Assembly (NCBI RefSeq): GCF_039641995.1
Contig: NZ_CP087714.1
Location: 124,001-188,000 of the forward strand
Reading direction: 5' to 3'
Source: Geoglobus acetivorans
GTDB taxonomy: Archaea > Halobacteriota > Archaeoglobi > Archaeoglobales > Archaeoglobaceae
DNA length: 64,000 bases
Made by a program: the position numbers and the translations under genes. The first letter of the stretch is position 1. The number at the start of each line of letters is the position of its first letter. Below are positions 7,219-61,675 of the stretch, one piece after another. The notes beneath the pieces are model-generated. The model worked only from the letters and a program-made list of their open reading frames with translations. It ran no database searches and was not told where the DNA came from.

Positions 7219-8251
7219 TTTCTGGGTGGATATTACCTCCCCCCCTCAGGTCTTCTTTTTCACACCAATTATAAAAGAGCTCGTAAAAAAAGGTTATAGT
7301 GTATATGTTACCGTCAGAGATAGAGGAGAAACTGTAGCTCTCGCTAAAAAATATTTATCAAATTTCAGCATCACTGGATCAGATTCCCCACACAGCATAT
7401 TAAAAATCTCCAAAACGGTCGCCAGAACGCTGGCATTATCGCTTAAGGTTCCAGATTATGACATCTGCCTCTGCTCGGAGTTGCCGATGGGTGTTGCTGT
7501 ATCCAAAATCAAAAGGCGAAGGTCTCTGATATTTCTTGATAATGATTTAAAGGTATATGAGCCGGGGATGTTCCAAAAACTTGAAGTTAAAGTTAAAACT
7601 CTTTCAAACTATGTTATTGTCCCAAAAGTCGCCGTAAAAAGTTTCGGAAAGGTCGTCCCGGAAGAAAAAATAATACATTATGATGGATACAAAGAACACA
7701 TCTCAATCTCGATTTTCAGGCCGGATCCCTCAGAGTTGAACAACATTCCATTCTCGGAATTCGTAGTGATTAGACCAGAGGCACTCTCGGCGATGTATGT
7801 GCGAGAGAAAAAATCCATTGTACCCGATCTAATAAAAAGATTCTATCGAGAAAATGTAAATGTGGTCTATCTTCCAAGAAAGGGAGATTTTGAATACTTG
7901 AGCAAAAGTTTCATCAAAAAATACGATAACATCTTCATACCAGATGGTGCTGTAGATGGTCTAAATATTTCATATTATGCAAAAGCTGTATTAACCGGCT
8001 CTGGAACGATGGCCCGGGAAGCTTCGCTTTTGGGAACTACAGCGGTATCATTCTTTCCAAGTAAAAAACTTCTTGCAGTAGACATAGACCTGATTTCCAA
8101 AAAAAGACTGTTTCACTCCAGAGACGTAAATGAAATTATCAACCATGTTTTGTCAAATTGGAACAAAAAAAGATTGCCTGAATTTGATGTCTGTAAAAAA
8201 ATTGTAAAAAATCTGACTGAGGAGATAACAAACCATCTGGATGGTGCATGA
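7202..8251 (+). CDS. DUF354 family protein, glycosyltransferase-like
   Basis: 349 residues beginning MAGKYDFWVDITSPPQVFFF, the typical N-terminus of DUF354 proteins, which resemble GT-B glycosyltransferases and UDP-GlcNAc 2-epimerases. A central DGYKEH and the later SYYAKAVLTGSGTMAREAS loop look like the nucleotide-sugar binding end of the fold. The reaction is not established for the family. It overlaps wecC by 17 nt and is strongly AT-rich (many AAA and ATA codons), like the rest of the 1.3-8.3 kb region. A role in assembling a ManNAcA-containing glycan is inferred from context. Confidence 0.75.
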   Translation: MAGKYDFWVDITSPPQVFFFTPIIKELVKKGYSVYVTVRDRGETVALAKKYLSNFSITGSDSPHSILKISKTVARTLALSLKVPDYDICLCSELPMGVAVSKIKRRRSLIFLDNDLKVYEPGMFQKLEVKVKTLSNYVIVPKVAVKSFGKVVPEEKIIHYDGYKEHISISIFRPDPSELNNIPFSEFVVIRPEALSAMYVREKKSIVPDLIKRFYRENVNVVYLPRKGDFEYLSKSFIKKYDNIFIPDGAVDGLNISYYAKAVLTGSGTMAREASLLGTTAVSFFPSKKLLAVDIDLISKKRLFHSRDVNEIINHVLSNWNKKRLPEFDVCKKIVKNLTEEITNHLDGA

Positions 8252-8345
8252 CAGCGCATGGAGACCCAACACCCATCTCAAAAGCATGTGCAAACATCAA
8301 TTCCCGAAACAATAATCCTCTTTGCGGGTAAATTGAATGTGATGA

Positions 8346-8379
8346 AAAAATTTTTATCCCTCCCAACTTACCTCTGCCA
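8346..8379 (+). promoter_or_regulatory. TATA box and short 5' end of aglB
   Basis: AAAAATTTTTATCC, with TTTTTATCC at 8351-8359, is an archaeal TATA/BRE-like element whose centre lies about 26 nt before the aglB ATG at 8380. No Shine-Dalgarno sequence precedes the ATG, so a leaderless transcript is likely and aglB is probably transcribed on its own. Confidence 0.5.
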
Positions 8380-10899
8380 ATGAAAGAGAAAATGGAGAGG
8401 TACTGGCATGTTCCATTCCTCGTTCTCGCAATTATCACAGGCCTTTATTTGAGAATCATAAACCCCTGGGATGCAGTGTTTGTTTCATGGATGGAGGGAG
8501 CAAGGCTGAGCGGAAACGACCCATGGTATTATTTCAGACTCATAGACTCTGCAATCCAGAATTTTCCGAACAGAATTTGGTTCGACGCTTTCACTCATTA
8601 CCCCTACGGAACATACATTCATTTCGGACCGTTCCTCGTTTATCTTGGAGTATTGGCATCCATGATTGCTGGAGCGACGACTCCTGCAGAGATTAGAACA
8701 GTTGTAGCGTTTATACCAGCAGTCGGTGGAGCGCTCTTGGCAGTACCAACATATCTCCTAACAAAAGAAATCTTTGGAAAGAAGGCAGGAATCATTTCAG
8801 CGTTCGTTGTAGTGCTGATTCCGGGACAGTTGATGGCAAGAAGTGTCCTCAGTTTTAACGATCACCACATCTGGGAAGTATTCTGGCAGGTTGCGACCCT
8901 AGGAACATTCATCCTTGCATACAATAGATGGAAAGCGTACAGTGGCAATTTGAGAAACTCCAGAATGCTCGCATATCCTATTATTGCAGGGATATGTATG
9001 GGAATGTATTTTCTCGCCTGGGGTGCCGGGTTCATATCAGTCATAATGATTACCTTTTTTATTATTCTCTCCTCTCTGCTGAGAACCTACATACAGGTAG
9101 ACACTGTGGCACTTGCAAAAGTTTCCGTAATCTCATTTCTGGTGGCTTCAGTAATCTACCTGCCCTTTTCAAACAAATTCCCCAGTTTTGCAGTAACATA
9201 TTACTCTCCGTTTCAGCTTAGCGTGCTACTTGGAGCTGCAGCCATCGTCGCAGTATTATATATTGTTGAGACAAGAGTTATCAAGAACAATAAATTTGAG
9301 AGCAAATGGACATACCCAGTGTCTGCCGTTGCAATAATCGCGATCTCAACTATACTACTCTACATACTTTCACCCGAATTTATCAGAAATCTGCAGTTCA
9401 TACTAAGGGTTGTCCAGCCAAAAGGTGGACAATTAACCATAGCAGAAGTCCAACCATTCTTCAGTCTCGGAGGAAAATTCAGCTTTGAACCGGCATGGCA
9501 GAACTTCAGCATTACATTCTTCTTTGCCCTTCCTGCAATGTTCTACTACGCATTCAGAGCATTAAGGGACAGGAACGAAAGGTACCTGTACATATCCATC
9601 TGGGCCTTTGCAATGCTCATAGCTCTTATGGGGCAGAACAGATTCGCGTATTACTTCGGTGTTGTTTCGGCTGTATTTTCCTCCGCGATCGTTAGTGAAA
9701 TTCTTGGCAGAGTGAGGTTCTACGAATACCTCGAAGCAGCAATTAACAACAACCAGAAGAAAATGAAAAAAATCGGCATCAAGGCTGTGATTGCCGGTGT
9801 GCTTCTGCTTCTCGTACTCATATACCCCACATTTTCTCAGGCCAACTTCTACAGCAAGTGGTCTGCAGGGGGGATAAACAAGCAGTGGTATGATACGCTT
9901 GAGTGGATGAGGGACAACACTCCTGGCAAAGAGGTCTACGATGAATTTTACTATCAGCTGTATAAACCGCCAGAGAGTTCCGGAGACCGATATCCATACT
10001 ACCCGGATGGAGTTTACAGTATAATAAGCTGGTGGGATTACGGTCACTGGATTACGGCAATCGCACACCGCATACCTGTTGCGAATCCTTTCCAGCAGGG
10101 CATAGGCAATAAATACAACGATGTGCCCGGAGCAGCGCCGTTCTTCACCGCGTTCAATGAGAGCTACGCAGACAGGATTGCTGAAAAACTGGGTGTCAAA
10201 TACGTTGTCAGCGATGTAGAGATGGCGACAGGCAAATTCTACGCGATGGCGGTGTGGGCAGAAGGTGAGCTTGGCAAAGCCGAGAGAACATACTATGCCG
10301 GTGGGGGAATAGTATATGTTGATGCCAACGGAAATCTTGGACTCTCTCTTACAGGGCAGATACCAGCAGGAGGGAGAGTGATCACCCATGTGAGCATACC
10401 CCGTGAAGATTACTACAGAACCATGGAGGCAAAGTTCCACATATTCGATGGCAGTGGTCTGAAGCACTACAGAATGGTTTACGAGAGTGGATTCAGCACG
10501 AACACGCTATCCGGGCTCAATGAGCTTGTGTACAAGAACATCTACAATTCGATGTATGCAAACAAATTTGATTACGGCAGGATTCCGACAGCATATTCTG
10601 GTTACGTCAAGGTTTTCGAATTTGTTGAGGGTGCAAGGATTACGGGCAAGGCCAATGGAGACTATGTCATTGCAAAGGTCACCATTAAAACAAATCAGGG
10701 TAGAACCTTCGACTACATTCAGAAAGTGCCTGTTGTAAATGGAAAATACGAGCTTGTACTCCCGTACGCCCAGGATACGAGCTACCCCGTCAAACCGGTA
10801 ACAGCATACACCATAGAGAGTGGTGGAATCGCGAAGACACTCGAGCTTACAGAAAAGCAGGTGGAGAATGGAGAACTGCTAACACTCGATTTAACATAA
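8380..10899 (+). CDS. aglB: Dolichyl-phosphooligosaccharide-protein glycotransferase (archaeal oligosaccharyltransferase, AglB-L type)
   Basis: 839 residues of the STT3/AglB family, which transfer a lipid-linked oligosaccharide to Asn in N-x-S/T sequons on the outer face of the membrane. An N-terminal multi-pass region (about residues 10-490) carries the first acidic motif, GNDPWYYF with metal-binding Asp47. The soluble C-terminal part starts with the diagnostic WWDYGHW (551-557), which binds the sequon Ser/Thr. The length fits the long AglB form of Archaeoglobales rather than the short paralogues of about 590 residues. It stands between the nucleotide-sugar genes and the sulfate-activation operon, consistent with a sulfated or uronate-bearing N-glycan. 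Confidence 0.95.
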   Translation: MKEKMERYWHVPFLVLAIITGLYLRIINPWDAVFVSWMEGARLSGNDPWYYFRLIDSAIQNFPNRIWFDAFTHYPYGTYIHFGPFLVYLGVLASMIAGATTPAEIRTVVAFIPAVGGALLAVPTYLLTKEIFGKKAGIISAFVVVLIPGQLMARSVLSFNDHHIWEVFWQVATLGTFILAYNRWKAYSGNLRNSRMLAYPIIAGICMGMYFLAWGAGFISVIMITFFIILSSLLRTYIQVDTVALAKVSVISFLVASVIYLPFSNKFPSFAVTYYSPFQLSVLLGAAAIVAVLYIVETRVIKNNKFESKWTYPVSAVAIIAISTILLYILSPEFIRNLQFILRVVQPKGGQLTIAEVQPFFSLGGKFSFEPAWQNFSITFFFALPAMFYYAFRALRDRNERYLYISIWAFAMLIALMGQNRFAYYFGVVSAVFSSAIVSEILGRVRFYEYLEAAINNNQKKMKKIGIKAVIAGVLLLLVLIYPTFSQANFYSKWSAGGINKQWYDTLEWMRDNTPGKEVYDEFYYQLYKPPESSGDRYPYYPDGVYSIISWWDYGHWITAIAHRIPVANPFQQGIGNKYNDVPGAAPFFTAFNESYADRIAEKLGVKYVVSDVEMATGKFYAMAVWAEGELGKAERTYYAGGGIVYVDANGNLGLSLTGQIPAGGRVITHVSIPREDYYRTMEAKFHIFDGSGLKHYRMVYESGFSTNTLSGLNELVYKNIYNSMYANKFDYGRIPTAYSGYVKVFEFVEGARITGKANGDYVIAKVTIKTNQGRTFDYIQKVPVVNGKYELVLPYAQDTSYPVKPVTAYTIESGGIAKTLELTEKQVENGELLTLDLT

Positions 10900-56025: not shown

Positions 56026-58365
56026 ATGAAGATCGGCGTATTTGTGTGTCACTGCGGTCTAAATATCGCAAGGGTTGTTGACGTTAATGAAGTCGTTGAA
56101 TACGTGAAAAATCTTCCGGATGTCGTTTATGTGAATGACATAAAATACAGCTGCTCTGATAGCGGCCAGGAGGAGATAATTCAGGCCATAAGGGAGTTCA
56201 ACCTCGATGCGATTGTGGTTGCAGCGTGCAGTCCAAAGCTGCACGAGGTTACATTCAGAAGGGCTGCAATGCGGGCTGGCCTGAATCCCTACATGGTTGT
56301 GATGGCGAATATAAGAGAACAGTGTTCATGGGTCCACCAGGAAAGGCCCAAAGCAGCAACGGCCAAGGCAAAAGACCTTATTCGAATGGCAGTTGCAAGT
56401 GCGAGGGCGCTCGAACCCCTTTCAAGAAGACATACTGAAGTGAAGCAGGCTGTGGCTGTTATTGGGGGTGGAGTTGCCGGGATTGAGGCTGCCCTGAACA
56501 TAGCCGATGCTGGAATACAGGTTTACCTGATAGAGAAAGCCCCGACCATTGGCGGTCACATGGCGACCCTTAATGAGGTCTTCCCCACAAACGACTGCTC
56601 GATCTGCATTCTCGCGCCGAAAATGAGTGAAGCCCTGAACCATGAGAATATCGAGGTGATAACCAACGCTGAGCTTAAGGATTTTGAGGGACACGTGGGC
56701 AACTTCAGGCTCAAAGTTATAAGACACCCGCGATATGTTGATGAAGGCAAGTGCAAGGGATGCATTGATGACTGCAGCTCTGTATGTCCGGTAGAGGTTC
56801 CAAACGAGTTCGATTATACTATCGGGACGAGAAAGGCAATTTACCTGCCTATACCTCAATCAACACCGCTCTATGCTGCAATAGACTGGCAGCACTGCAT
56901 TGGATGCAGGCTATGTGAGAAAGCATGTGAGCCTGAGGCAATAGATTTCAGCCAGAATCCAGAGGAGATCGAAATTGAGGTTGGGGCGGTTATTGTTGCC
57001 ACGGGCTTCAGGCCGTTTGACGCCCGGAGGAAGGAAGAATACGGGTATGGCATATACAGAAACGTCATCACCTCACTCGAACTGGAAAGATTGCTCTCAG
57101 CCTCCGGACCCACACTGGGCGAACTTTTGAGACCTTCAGATTCGAGTATCCCCAAGAAAATCGCATTCATTCAGTGTGTTGGTAGCAGAGACGAGAAAAC
57201 CAACAGATACTGCTCAAGAGTTTGCTGCATGTCGAGTTTAAAGAACGCATTTGCCATAAAGGAGCGTTATCCTGATTCAGAGGTTACTGTATTTTATATT
57301 GACATCAGAGCTTACGGAAGAATGTACGAAGAATTTTATGCAAGAACGCAGGAGAAAGGCATCAGGTTCATCCGGGGCAGGGTTGGAGAAATTTATGAAA
57401 CGAATGATGGCAGCCTGATTCTGAGTTATGAGAATACACTGCTTGGAGAGGTTGTTGAGGAGGAATTCGACCTCGTGGTTCTGTCGATAGGGATGGAGGG
57501 CAACACCGAGGTTGCGAGAAAGCTCGGAATATCTGTTGGGGAGGACGGGTTTTACGAGGTGGCGCATCCAAAACTCAGGCCGGCAGAAACCGATGTGAAG
57601 GGCATATTTCTTGCAGGCACTGCAAGCGGTCCGAAGGACATTCAGGACAGTGTCGCCTCGGCAGGCCTTGCTGCTGCAAAAGCGATGGAGCTGATCGTGA
57701 GCGGTCAGGCAGAATTTGACCCTTACAATGCTTATGTGAATCCTGACAAATGCATTGGGTGCGGACTCTGTGTCAGCGTGTGCAACTTCAGCGCTGCATT
57801 CATGGAGGGCAAGAAAGCAAGGATCGATCCGAATTCGTGTGTTATGTGCGGGGTGTGCGTCGCTTCATGTCCTGCAGATGCGATAGACATGGGATTTTTC
57901 AACGAAAAATCCATAATCTCGGCCATAGATGCGCTGGCTGAAGAAAAGAGTGCTGAACCCTTAATTCTCATGTTTGCATGCCATTTCTGCAGCTATGGTG
58001 CCCTTGACCTTGCGGGAACAACGAAGGTGCAGTATGAGCCAAATGTGAGAGTCATCAGAACCCTCTGTTCCGGCAGAGTCGATCCTGAATGGATCTTGAG
58101 GGCGTTGAAGAACGGCATAGACGGGATCATGATATCGGGATGCAGGCCGGGAGAGTGCCATTTCAAGGTCGGCAACTATCATGCACAGGACAGAGTTAAT
58201 GCCATCAGGGAGGCGCTCAGAGAGGTTGGAATAAATCCTGAAAGGGTAACGACAAGCTGGCACTCAGCTGGAGAGGCAGGAGGGATTGCGGAGGACATCA
58301 GCAGGTTTGTGGAGACCCTGAAGGAGATTGGGCCAATTGAAAGTGAGGTGAACAGAGATGGTTGA
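56026..58365 (+). CDS. hdrA: HdrA-type flavin/iron-sulfur protein fused to MvhD
   Basis: 779 residues. The N-terminal HdrA-specific Cys region (Cys8, Cys10, Cys43, Cys68, Cys100) precedes the FAD-binding GGGVAGIEAALNIADAG (147-163). Two [4Fe-4S] clusters lie at Cys243/246/250/254 and Cys291/294/297/301, and two more at CIGCGLCVSVC and CVMCGVCVASC. The last about 140 residues are MvhD-like, with CHFCSY, TLCSGRVDPEW and SGCRPGECHFKVGN for a [2Fe-2S] centre. HdrA performs flavin-based electron bifurcation; MvhD receives electrons from a hydrogenase or other donor. No hdrBC is adjacent; the start of the polyferredoxin gene overlaps the stop. Confidence 0.93.
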   Translation: MKIGVFVCHCGLNIARVVDVNEVVEYVKNLPDVVYVNDIKYSCSDSGQEEIIQAIREFNLDAIVVAACSPKLHEVTFRRAAMRAGLNPYMVVMANIREQCSWVHQERPKAATAKAKDLIRMAVASARALEPLSRRHTEVKQAVAVIGGGVAGIEAALNIADAGIQVYLIEKAPTIGGHMATLNEVFPTNDCSICILAPKMSEALNHENIEVITNAELKDFEGHVGNFRLKVIRHPRYVDEGKCKGCIDDCSSVCPVEVPNEFDYTIGTRKAIYLPIPQSTPLYAAIDWQHCIGCRLCEKACEPEAIDFSQNPEEIEIEVGAVIVATGFRPFDARRKEEYGYGIYRNVITSLELERLLSASGPTLGELLRPSDSSIPKKIAFIQCVGSRDEKTNRYCSRVCCMSSLKNAFAIKERYPDSEVTVFYIDIRAYGRMYEEFYARTQEKGIRFIRGRVGEIYETNDGSLILSYENTLLGEVVEEEFDLVVLSIGMEGNTEVARKLGISVGEDGFYEVAHPKLRPAETDVKGIFLAGTASGPKDIQDSVASAGLAAAKAMELIVSGQAEFDPYNAYVNPDKCIGCGLCVSVCNFSAAFMEGKKARIDPNSCVMCGVCVASCPADAIDMGFFNEKSIISAIDALAEEKSAEPLILMFACHFCSYGALDLAGTTKVQYEPNVRVIRTLCSGRVDPEWILRALKNGIDGIMISGCRPGECHFKVGNYHAQDRVNAIREALREVGINPERVTTSWHSAGEAGGIAEDISRFVETLKEIGPIESEVNRDG

Positions 58366-59659
58366 TGTTGAGCGTGACATAGACATGGCTGGAGAAACCA
58401 AATTCAAGTACATCCAGAGAGCGGGAAAGGAGGTCAGGGAGCTTGTTTATGATTACAAAATCTGCAACGGATGCGGGATATGTGTTTATGCCTGCCCCGT
58501 AAATGCGATTGAGCTTGGTCCCGTGCATGACATAGCCATAGGGCTTGAAATGCCTCCAGTAACCATAGATCACACAAAATGTGCGTACTGCGGGATATGC
58601 TATGCATTCTGCCCGTTCAATGCCTATGAATTCTACGTAAATGGAAATAAAGTCGAAAAAGAGGATCTTCCTCTCTCTCCTGTCGGATTCACCGAGATTG
58701 ATTACGGGAAGTGCATGGACTGCACACTCTGTTACAGGGTGTGTCCGGAGGATGCCATTACGAGGGAGATAAAGATAACGAGAGATGCGATTTCGGAAAA
58801 AAATGAAGGTGTAAATGGCAAGGTGATCATAGACAGGGAAAAATGCAACCTGTGCGGGATCTGTGCTGAATTCTGTCCGGTTTTCAAGATGGTTGAGCGA
58901 GAACCAGGCCCAACCAATCCGATGCCCTATGAGGATATTCTGCTTGACGAATCTACATGCGATTACTGCGTGCTTTGTGAAGATGTGTGTCCTGAAGAGG
59001 CGATAAAAGTCGAGGATGGGAGAAGAATCGAGTTCAGGCTTGAAAAGCTTGCCATCATTTCTGTTGATAATGAAAAATGCTCCAACTGCGCATACTGTGA
59101 GGTTGTCTGCCCCTACGATGCCATAAAAACCACGAAGCCCATGGAAGGGGAATTATTCCTTTACGAGCCGAGAATGTATCGCTGCGATCCGGTGGGATGT
59201 GGAGCGTGCATTAAGATATGCCAGCACAACAGGGTGTGGTACGTTTCTGAGGACAAGGGGAGGGTTCACTTCAATGAGGATCACTGCATTTACTGCGGAG
59301 CCTGCGAGAATGCCTGTCCGTATGATCTCATAGGGGTCAGGCGGGAGAGCTATTACACCAAGGAGAATGTTTCATGGGAGCCATGGGTGGAATCGTGGCA
59401 TCAGGCTCTGAGCAGAATAATTGAGAAGAGAAGAACCACTGAGCCTGAAAGAAAGCTGTACCGGGAGGAACTGGGAGGGATAATTGCTGAAGAGGATATC
59501 ATCGTCAGGAAAGTTGATGAGCGTGTGAGAGCAGAGCTTGAAGAGAAATTGAGGGCCGTTGAAGCGTTGTTGAAACGACCGTATTATCGAAGGGTCATCG
59601 AAAAGGGCAATACGGAAGCCTTTATAAACGGATTGAGAAAGGAGCTAAGCGAAGGGTGA
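58358..59659 (+). CDS. Polyferredoxin with eight [4Fe-4S] cluster motifs (FwdF-like)
   Basis: 433 residues with eight tandem 4Fe-4S motifs: CNGCGICVYAC, CAYCGICYAFC, CMDCTLCYRVC, CNLCGICAEFC, CDYCVLCEDVC, CSNCAYCEVVC, a variant CDPVGCGACIKIC, and CIYCGACENAC. That gives up to 32 cysteines and resembles FwdF, the electron wire of formylmethanofuran dehydrogenase. The C-terminal 80 residues are charged and helical without cysteines. It overlaps hdrA by 8 nt, so it probably carries electrons to or from the HdrA-MvhD flavoprotein. The terminal partner is not in the window. Confidence 0.9.
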   Translation: MVDVERDIDMAGETKFKYIQRAGKEVRELVYDYKICNGCGICVYACPVNAIELGPVHDIAIGLEMPPVTIDHTKCAYCGICYAFCPFNAYEFYVNGNKVEKEDLPLSPVGFTEIDYGKCMDCTLCYRVCPEDAITREIKITRDAISEKNEGVNGKVIIDREKCNLCGICAEFCPVFKMVEREPGPTNPMPYEDILLDESTCDYCVLCEDVCPEEAIKVEDGRRIEFRLEKLAIISVDNEKCSNCAYCEVVCPYDAIKTTKPMEGELFLYEPRMYRCDPVGCGACIKICQHNRVWYVSEDKGRVHFNEDHCIYCGACENACPYDLIGVRRESYYTKENVSWEPWVESWHQALSRIIEKRRTTEPERKLYREELGGIIAEEDIIVRKVDERVRAELEEKLRAVEALLKRPYYRRVIEKGNTEAFINGLRKELSEG

Positions 59660-59663
59660 ACCT

Positions 59664-60866
59664 ATGCATCTCGAAAGAATAAAGGGGAGTAAAAGCGGAA
59701 AACTGACAGGCAAAAAGATCGTTCTTGGAGTTACTGGAAGCATCGCCGCAATCGAGGCTGTCAAACTTGCGAGAGAGCTTGTGAGGAGAGGGGCTGAAGT
59801 TCATGCAGTGATGAGTGGGGCTGCTAAAAACATAATACATCCGTACGCTCTGGAATTTGCAACCGACAACAGAGTTATAACGGAGATCACGGGCGCAATA
59901 GAGCATGTGGAATTCTTTGGAGAGGGAGGAACTGCGGATCTTTTCCTCATAGCTCCCGCAACCGCAAATACGATTGCCAAAATTGCGGCAGGAATCGACG
60001 ACACTCCTGTAACCACAATGGCCACAACAGCGATAGGGACCGGAAAACCCGTTATGATAGCTCCGGCGATGCATGAGACGATGATGAATCACCCTTCTGT
60101 CAGAGAGGCAATTGAAAAACTCAAAAAAATGGGTATTGAATTTGTGGAGCCAAAATACGAAGAGGGAAAGGCAAAGTTTGCCGAGATCGAAAAGATCTGT
60201 CTTCAGGTTGAAAGAAAGCTCCACAGAAAAGATCTCGAAGGCATGAAGATTGTGGTTACTTCGGGCCCGACAATGGAGTTTCTCGATCCGATAAGGTACA
60301 TTACCAACAGGAGCAGCGGAAAGTTTGGATATGAGATCGCTCTCGAGTTCTGGAGAAGGGGAGCAAAAATTGATCTGATCACGTCCAGACCCCCTGAATT
60401 TGATTTACCTGACTTTACAGTGAGAAAGGTTGTCTCGGTGGGAGATATGCTTTCAGAAAGTCTGAAAGCAATTGAGAATGCAGACGTTTTTGTATCCGCA
60501 GCGGCAGCCGCTGACTTTACCACGCCAAGAAAGGAGAGCAAAATTAAATCCGATGAGAAGCTCATTCTCGAACTGGAAATAGCGCCCAAGGTTCTTAGAG
60601 AGGTGAGGAAGGTTTTCGATGGAAAGGTCATAGCTTTCAAAGCTGAAACGGGTATTGATGATGAGGAACTTGAGAGAATAGCCATAGACAAGATGAAAAC
60701 CGACAGGGCAGAAATGATAGTTGCAAACGATGTTCTGGAGAGAGGTATGGGAACAGAGGATACGAGAGTCCTCGTCATAACTCCCGACAGAAAGGTTTGG
60801 CTTGAGGGCAGGAAACAGGAAGTGGCGGAGAGAATAGTCGAGTACTTCGTTCAGGACTGCTTATGA
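59664..60866 (+). CDS. coaBC: Bifunctional phosphopantothenoylcysteine decarboxylase / phosphopantothenate-cysteine ligase
   Basis: 400 residues. The CoaC half has VLGVTGSIAAIEAVKLAREL, IAPATANTIAKIAAGI and the catalytic PAMHETMM. The CoaB half has TSGPTMEFLDPIRYITNRSS, VSAAAAADFTTPR, and KMKTDRAEMIVANDV. It joins phosphopantothenate and cysteine and decarboxylates the product for coenzyme A. The stop overlaps the pantoate kinase start (ATGA), so the two CoA genes are coupled. Confidence 0.95.
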   Translation: MHLERIKGSKSGKLTGKKIVLGVTGSIAAIEAVKLARELVRRGAEVHAVMSGAAKNIIHPYALEFATDNRVITEITGAIEHVEFFGEGGTADLFLIAPATANTIAKIAAGIDDTPVTTMATTAIGTGKPVMIAPAMHETMMNHPSVREAIEKLKKMGIEFVEPKYEEGKAKFAEIEKICLQVERKLHRKDLEGMKIVVTSGPTMEFLDPIRYITNRSSGKFGYEIALEFWRRGAKIDLITSRPPEFDLPDFTVRKVVSVGDMLSESLKAIENADVFVSAAAAADFTTPRKESKIKSDEKLILELEIAPKVLREVRKVFDGKVIAFKAETGIDDEELERIAIDKMKTDRAEMIVANDVLERGMGTEDTRVLVITPDRKVWLEGRKQEVAERIVEYFVQDCL

Positions 60867-61675
60867 CGTTTGTTTCCGCAAGCATCACCGCATTTTTTTC
60901 ATCAAAAATTTCGGATTCCCCGGAGACTACCGGGTCTTATGGTGTGGGGTTCACGATAGACAAGGGGGTCAGGGCTGAAATATCGGAAAAGGAAGGTGTG
61001 TATCTGAATGGGGAGAGGGTGGACTTTCCAACCGTCAGCTACGTTCTTGAAAAACTTGGTGGACGTGGTGTGGAACTTTTTTCAGATGTTCCCATTTCGT
61101 CTGGGTTCGGAGTCAGTGGTGCCAGCGCTCTGGCAACAGCCATTGAAGTCAGCATGGGAAAAAATCTGGGCCATTCGTTTCTGGAGCTTGCAGATCTGGC
61201 ACATGAGGCAGAGGTAGTAAATCTGACGGGTCTCGGGGATGTCGTAACCCAGAGTCATGGCGGCATCGTTGTGAGGATAAGTCCGGGCTGCCCGTCAAGG
61301 GCAAAGGTGGTGAGATATCTCCATAGGGCAGACGTAAAGTTCCTTGTCATGGGGACGCTCCCCACGAGAGACATACTCTCGGATGAGATAAAGCGAAAGA
61401 ACATCAACAGACTCGGAAAGAGCCTTCTGAAAGATTTTTTGAAGAAGCCACTGATGGATTGCGTTTTCGAGCTGTCGAAAAAGTTTGCAGTCGAGAGTGG
61501 GCTCGCAGATGAGGACGTGATTGACGCAATTGAAGCTGTGGAGAGTGCAGGTGGGAAGGCCGGCATGGTCATGCTCGGAAAGACCGTTTTCGCAATGGAC
61601 GATTCAGGAGTCCTTGAAGAATTTCGGGGTGAAACTTTCACGGCCAGAATTGCCTCATGCGGCCTATCCGTTTAA
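60863..61675 (+). CDS. Pantoate kinase (archaeal, GHMP family)
   Basis: 270 residues. GHMP phosphate loop PISSGFGVSGASALATAIEV near residues 79-98, and LTGLGDVVTQSHGGIVVR, are typical of archaeal pantoate kinase. It phosphorylates pantoate before condensation with beta-alanine, the archaeal alternative to the bacterial order. Translational coupling to coaBC supports this assignment. The N-terminus MTFVSASITAFFSSKISDSP is conserved in the family. Confidence 0.9.
   Translation: MTFVSASITAFFSSKISDSPETTGSYGVGFTIDKGVRAEISEKEGVYLNGERVDFPTVSYVLEKLGGRGVELFSDVPISSGFGVSGASALATAIEVSMGKNLGHSFLELADLAHEAEVVNLTGLGDVVTQSHGGIVVRISPGCPSRAKVVRYLHRADVKFLVMGTLPTRDILSDEIKRKNINRLGKSLLKDFLKKPLMDCVFELSKKFAVESGLADEDVIDAIEAVESAGGKAGMVMLGKTVFAMDDSGVLEEFRGETFTARIASCGLSV

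Follow-up and report, generated by a model that had tools for sequence, protein, structure and literature searches.

The window analysed here is a stretch of 64,000 nucleotides from Geoglobus acetivorans (positions 124,001 to 188,000 of contig NZ_CP087714.1). It contains a gene for an HdrA with a C-terminal MvhD domain (HdrA2), followed directly by a gene for a polyferredoxin (Pfd) and by two genes related to coenzyme A synthesis. In window coordinates, the features are:

56026-58365, plus strand: hdrA2, HdrA with C-terminal MvhD domain, 779 aa (NCBIfam NF040770, 1263 bits; PDB HdrA chains, E 1e-223)
57964-58332, plus strand: MvhD/FlpD domain of HdrA2, residues 647-769 (PF02662, 164.5 bits, E 1.3e-48)
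58345-58351, plus strand: GAGGTGA, resembling a Shine-Dalgarno sequence, ahead of pfd and within the 3' end of hdrA2 (read from the sequence)
58358-59659, plus strand: pfd, eight-cluster FwdF-like polyferredoxin, 433 aa, with 32 invariant cysteines and a C-terminal helical extension
59664-60866, plus strand: coaBC-like gene for CoA biosynthesis, separated from pfd by 4 bp (sequence; syntenic in most Archaeoglobi)
60863-61675, plus strand: pantoate-kinase-like gene, overlapping coaBC by 4 bp (sequence; synteny in most Archaeoglobi)

The open reading frames of hdrA2 and pfd share 8 bp. The coaBC gene probably belongs to the same operon, and it is a conserved neighbour outside the redox unit. The order pfd, coaBC, pantoate kinase (window 58358-61675) is kept in most Archaeoglobi. 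Neither fwd nor hdrCB genes were found near the hdrA2–pfd pair in this genome, and the locus differs from a canonical HdrABC-MvhADG locus in that hdrBC and mvhAG do not adjoin it. A preliminary description had presented the locus as an HdrA-MvhD fusion with four 4Fe-4S motifs and an overlapping gene for an eight-cluster polyferredoxin, which the reading frames, the PF02662 match and the 32 cysteines bear out. Its statement that HdrBC and hydrogenase are lacking holds for the neighbourhood but not for the genome, in which a hdrA-C-B-mvhD-G-A cluster and an unlinked hdrC–hdrB pair are encoded.

Against the NCBIfam model for HdrA2 (NF040770), the fusion scored 1263.2 bits over residues 2-774, above the cut-off of 1100, and the solved HdrA chains aligned to residues 2-641. 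Four ferredoxin-type motifs are present, at residues 243, 291, 576 and 605. On alignment with 5odc, the non-ferredoxin cluster of HdrA was found to have its residues as well (C384/396/400/401, equivalent to C386/399/403/404), and C194 is the counterpart of C197, which is said to complete the N-terminal cluster from the partner subunit (PMC9012536). Since these residues are kept together with the four motifs, the HdrA part probably carries six 4Fe-4S clusters and the MvhD part one 2Fe-2S cluster; the earlier count of four is correct for the ferredoxin-type motifs and probably leaves out two further clusters. The cysteines of the MvhD 2Fe-2S cluster (C652, C655, C681, C706 and C711) do not vary across 15 fused HdrAs. 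The residues discussed as bifurcation residues of HdrA, E356 and K409 in 5odc (PMC12054007), align with E354 and K406, and these two residues and all cluster cysteines (those of the ferredoxin motifs, C384/396/400/401 and those of MvhD) are invariant in the 15 fused homologs. A 2025 survey designated HdrA–MvhD fusions "type Ia" (PMC12054007), and such a fusion had been noted earlier in the Archaeoglobi MAG Ca. Polytropus marinifundus (PMC6474303). Assignment of HdrA2 as QmoA or QmoB was rejected; when the genome was searched with HdrA2 (E 1e-5), only one other HdrA and no QmoA/B-like reading frame came up.

Pfd contains exactly 32 cysteines, which make up eight 4Fe-4S motifs; one motif has C-x4-C spacing. 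All 32 cysteines are invariant across 14 homologs. It is the best FwdF-like protein of the genome, with 238 bits as compared with 177 for its only paralog; its score of 238.1 bits against the FwdF model is nonetheless below the cut-off of 375. The AlphaFold model has a pLDDT of 86.8 and its best PDB matches are all FwdF or FmdF, which are the closest solved relatives by sequence as well as by fold. In the tree, Pfd falls with Methanosarcina pfd in a clade of its own (support 96/93), for which other Methanosarcina were sampled and the M. acetivorans genome itself was left out. As judged from these sequences, this clade is sister to FwdF/FmdF. The model cut-off and the tree placement rule out a true FwdF, and MvhB was rejected on its weaker matches (1e-27 vs 1e-54 for FwdF). 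Pfd is thus not classed as FwdF, yet by its modelled fold it would work like one. Another polyferredoxin, 374 aa long and matching the motif ten times, is encoded at genome positions 1532200-1533324; it has homologs in other Archaeoglobi genera and no evident partner.

The genome consists of a single contig of 1,903,522 bp, and the sole HdrA paralog of HdrA2 in it (41% identical) belongs to the hydrogenase-linked hdrA-C-B-mvhD-G-A cluster, which lies at about 1.811-1.817 Mb, separate from hdrA2–pfd. The unlinked hdrC–hdrB pair is found at 1603957-1605224. Its HdrB keeps both CCG motifs, and the hydrogenase-linked HdrB only the first. The latter protein (locus L014, positions 7763-8563) has lost the second motif and keeps only one CC pair, so that perhaps just one noncubane cluster is bound. 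The closest Methanosarcina relatives of the unlinked hdrC–hdrB are likewise unlinked hdrCB pairs, with 42-45% identity. A candidate HdrC2B2 partner is therefore encoded in the genome, the HdrB tree being only partly resolved and not settling strict orthology; by sequence, the pair appears to mirror the hdrC2B2 of M. acetivorans. The fwdDBAC run lies at about 1.495-1.499 Mb and contains no fwdF, and Pfd is not encoded in a fwd operon. The only FrhB-domain protein of the genome adjoins a ferredoxin-type subunit and, judging by its sequence and family, looks like FqoF.

The distribution of the two genes was followed in 59 Archaeoglobi genomes, 43 of them of good quality. In this sample, Pfd goes together with full-length fusions of HdrA2, which show 50-96% identity: a Pfd match was found in 40 of the 43 good-quality genomes, and in the other three (G015, G017 and G057) HdrA2 gave no match at E 1e-200 either. 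Nine Archaeoglobi genera (g1, g3, g5, g7, g8, g11, g12, g14 and g15) have hdrA2 and pfd side by side; in four others (g2, g6, g9 and g13) the two are separated, and pfd keeps coaBC and pantoate kinase as neighbours. Neighbouring hdrA2 and pfd genes were likewise seen in Methanosarcinaceae, Methanotrichaceae, family f28 and Ca. Methanolliviera. The names given to the methanogen families f4 and f17 and to the Methanomicrobiales families are our assumption, drawn in part from gene content and literature, and the label "A. fulgidus-type", used below for some Archaeoglobi genomes, is likewise a presumed one. The HdrA2 and Pfd trees alike split Archaeoglobi from Methanosarcinales and Methanolliviera, and the two distance matrices are strongly correlated (Mantel r 0.947, a value reached in 0 of 5000 permutations), although relatedness alone also lifts such an r. 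The GC content of the pair (0.490) is inside the range of the window (0.473 ± 0.024), and no close relative of hdrA2–pfd was found in the plasmid collections searched. Neither patchy or incongruent spread, nor plasmid carriage, nor odd composition, the marks of mobile cargo, was observed.

Orthologs of hdrC2B2 were found in six Archaeoglobi genera only (g1, g7, g8, g10, g14 and g15). Others, including g2, g3, g6, g9 and g13, keep HdrA2 and Pfd and either lack the orphan-HdrB ortholog at E 1e-25 or have only paralogs of 33-41% identity. Hence, with HdrA2 and Pfd in nearly all Archaeoglobi, the partnership with HdrC2B2 is not obligate; in the genera without it, either other HdrB/HdrD proteins stand in or HdrA2–Pfd acts alone. 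The unlinked hdrC–hdrB ortholog is present in Geoglobus and a few other genera, presumably including Ferroglobus, and not in A. fulgidus-type genomes; its presence may track the loss of sulfate reduction.

Gene neighbourhoods in relatives bear on the partners of the pair. In Methanotrichaceae, hdrA2, pfd, hdrC and hdrB form a single run. In several Methanosarcinaceae, a divergent fwdG/E-like–fwdB–fwdD group lies close to hdrA2–pfd; in A. fulgidus-type genomes, fwdB2–fwdD2 is located about 4 kb downstream of pfd; and in Methanomicrobiales, the order is polyferredoxin–hdrC–hdrB–hdrA–mvhD–fwdDBAC, with mvhD unfused. FmdF was reported to bind the inserted ferredoxin domain of HdrA in M. hungatei (PMC12350162), and by analogy Pfd may dock at the same domain of HdrA2 as a low-potential wire, which would most probably lead to Fwd. 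Some Archaeoglobi carry a second HdrA-MvhD fusion directly upstream of fwdA-fwdC (L162, 295-10412, in genome G020; L163, 1867-10242, in G034), together with two polyferredoxin-like genes and a divergent hdrC-hdrB, and with fwdB nearby in L162. These loci represent an Hdr-Fwd cluster in Archaeoglobi, and their HdrA groups with that of the Methanomicrobiales fwd operons (support 95/91).

On this evidence, the locus is best regarded as the Archaeoglobi version of the Methanosarcina hdrA2-polyferredoxin operon, with HdrC2B2 as partner and Pfd as a wire to Fwd or ferredoxin, a reading to which we assign a probability of about 0.6. In the mechanism proposed, HdrA2, identified as such by its family, domains and conserved residues, carries the bifurcating FAD and would join the HdrC2B2 encoded at the unlinked site. 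MvhD would take in electrons from F420H2 or a different mid-potential donor, and these, as in the homologs, would be split between a disulfide at HdrB and a low-potential exit, or confurcated in the reverse direction. The exit would be the inserted ferredoxin domain of HdrA2, and Pfd, docked there as FmdF is in M. hungatei, would exchange low-potential electrons with formylmethanofuran dehydrogenase or with free ferredoxin. For Geoglobus, the use would lie in CO2 fixation or, with the C1 pathway running in reverse, in the oxidation of acetate and fatty acids. What the preliminary description suggested, a bifurcating core of HdrA and MvhD wired by a polyferredoxin of the FwdF type, is supported by sequence, and its "distant partners" are most readily understood as HdrC2B2 at one end and formylmethanofuran dehydrogenase at the other.

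It is unlikely, but deserves weighing, that HdrA2-Pfd acts without HdrBC in Archaeoglobi, either as an oxidoreductase between F420H2 (or another donor) and ferredoxin or polyferredoxin, or as an adaptor borrowing HdrB/HdrD-type partners of other complexes. The close co-occurrence of the two proteins and the many genera that keep them without an orphan-HdrB ortholog would agree with this; the window genome, however, encodes hdrC2B2 with both CCG motifs present, and hdrCB stands in the same run as hdrA2-pfd in Methanotrichaceae. A broader formulation, in which HdrA2-Pfd of non-methanogenic Archaeoglobi is an Hdr-Fwd bifurcating or confurcating assembly that links F420 to the oxidation of formylmethanofuran or the reduction of CO2, and an HdrBC-free unit in genera without hdrC2B2, is speculative and rather improbable.

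The wire may also lead to a low-potential enzyme other than Fwd, such as CO dehydrogenase/acetyl-CoA synthase, pyruvate:ferredoxin oxidoreductase or a membrane complex. The pfd gene of Geoglobus does not adjoin fwd, and the transcript of the M. acetivorans hdrA–pfd operon was found to be higher on acetate, and a link to Rnf was proposed (PMC2838876). CODH/ACS, however, reaches HdrA2B2C2 without need of Pfd (PMC5296606), fwd genes recur as neighbours in relatives and FwdF is the closest solved relative in sequence and fold, so that this destination is doubtful. Very improbable indeed is the earlier suggestion of a mobile module gained for Fe(III) or sulfur-oxyanion respiration. In the window genome, hdrBC, fwd and hydrogenase genes do lie elsewhere, but the class-wide presence of the pair, the congruent trees and distances, its ordinary GC content and the lack of close plasmid relatives lead to a vertical, non-mobile reading, and the synteny with the CoA genes is conserved. 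Methanogens and A. fulgidus-type sulfate reducers carry the same pair, which speaks against a specific link to either kind of respiration. From the sequence comparisons, hdrA2–pfd is an old, vertically inherited unit common to Archaeoglobi, Methanosarcinales and Ca. Methanolliviera.

These comparisons connect an anonymous Geoglobus operon with the HdrA2B2C2 system, which has been characterised; for its lineage, the pair is commonplace and no new mobile device. The neighbours of pfd in relatives, which point to formylmethanofuran dehydrogenase, narrow the question of what the polyferredoxin does.

The HdrA2B2C2 of M. acetivorans is encoded by two operons, MA2867–2868 (polyferredoxin and HdrA2) and MA4236–4237 (HdrC2B2) (PMC9963511); co-transcription of hdrA–pfd and the unlinked hdrCB had been reported in 2010 under other gene numbers (PMC2838876). 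The purified complex uses ferredoxin and F420H2, and it was not stimulated by recombinant polyferredoxin, which could be obtained only with incomplete clusters (PMC5296606). The window pair has the same order of homologous genes as MA2868-MA2867, a fused HdrA-MvhD and then directly an eight-cluster polyferredoxin, with 53-54% identity to the Methanosarcina homologs for HdrA2 and about 40-42% for Pfd, and its hdrC-hdrB is likewise located elsewhere. Unlike in M. acetivorans, the host is of the non-methanogenic Geoglobus type, and coaBC and pantoate kinase come after pfd. The Hdr-Fmd(Fwd) supercomplex of M. hungatei (PDB 7bkb), relatives of which carry hdrCBA-mvhD-fwd operons, similarly combines HdrA with a FwdF-type polyferredoxin; however, the related Methanomicrobiales operons have a gene of its own for MvhD, which is fused in the window, FmdF belongs to a different clade from Pfd, and no fwd gene adjoins the window pair. 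With canonical HdrABC-MvhADG, the fusion shares the HdrA domain architecture, the cluster ligands and the bifurcation residues, and it differs in having MvhD fused within HdrA2 and hydrogenase and HdrBC encoded apart from it.
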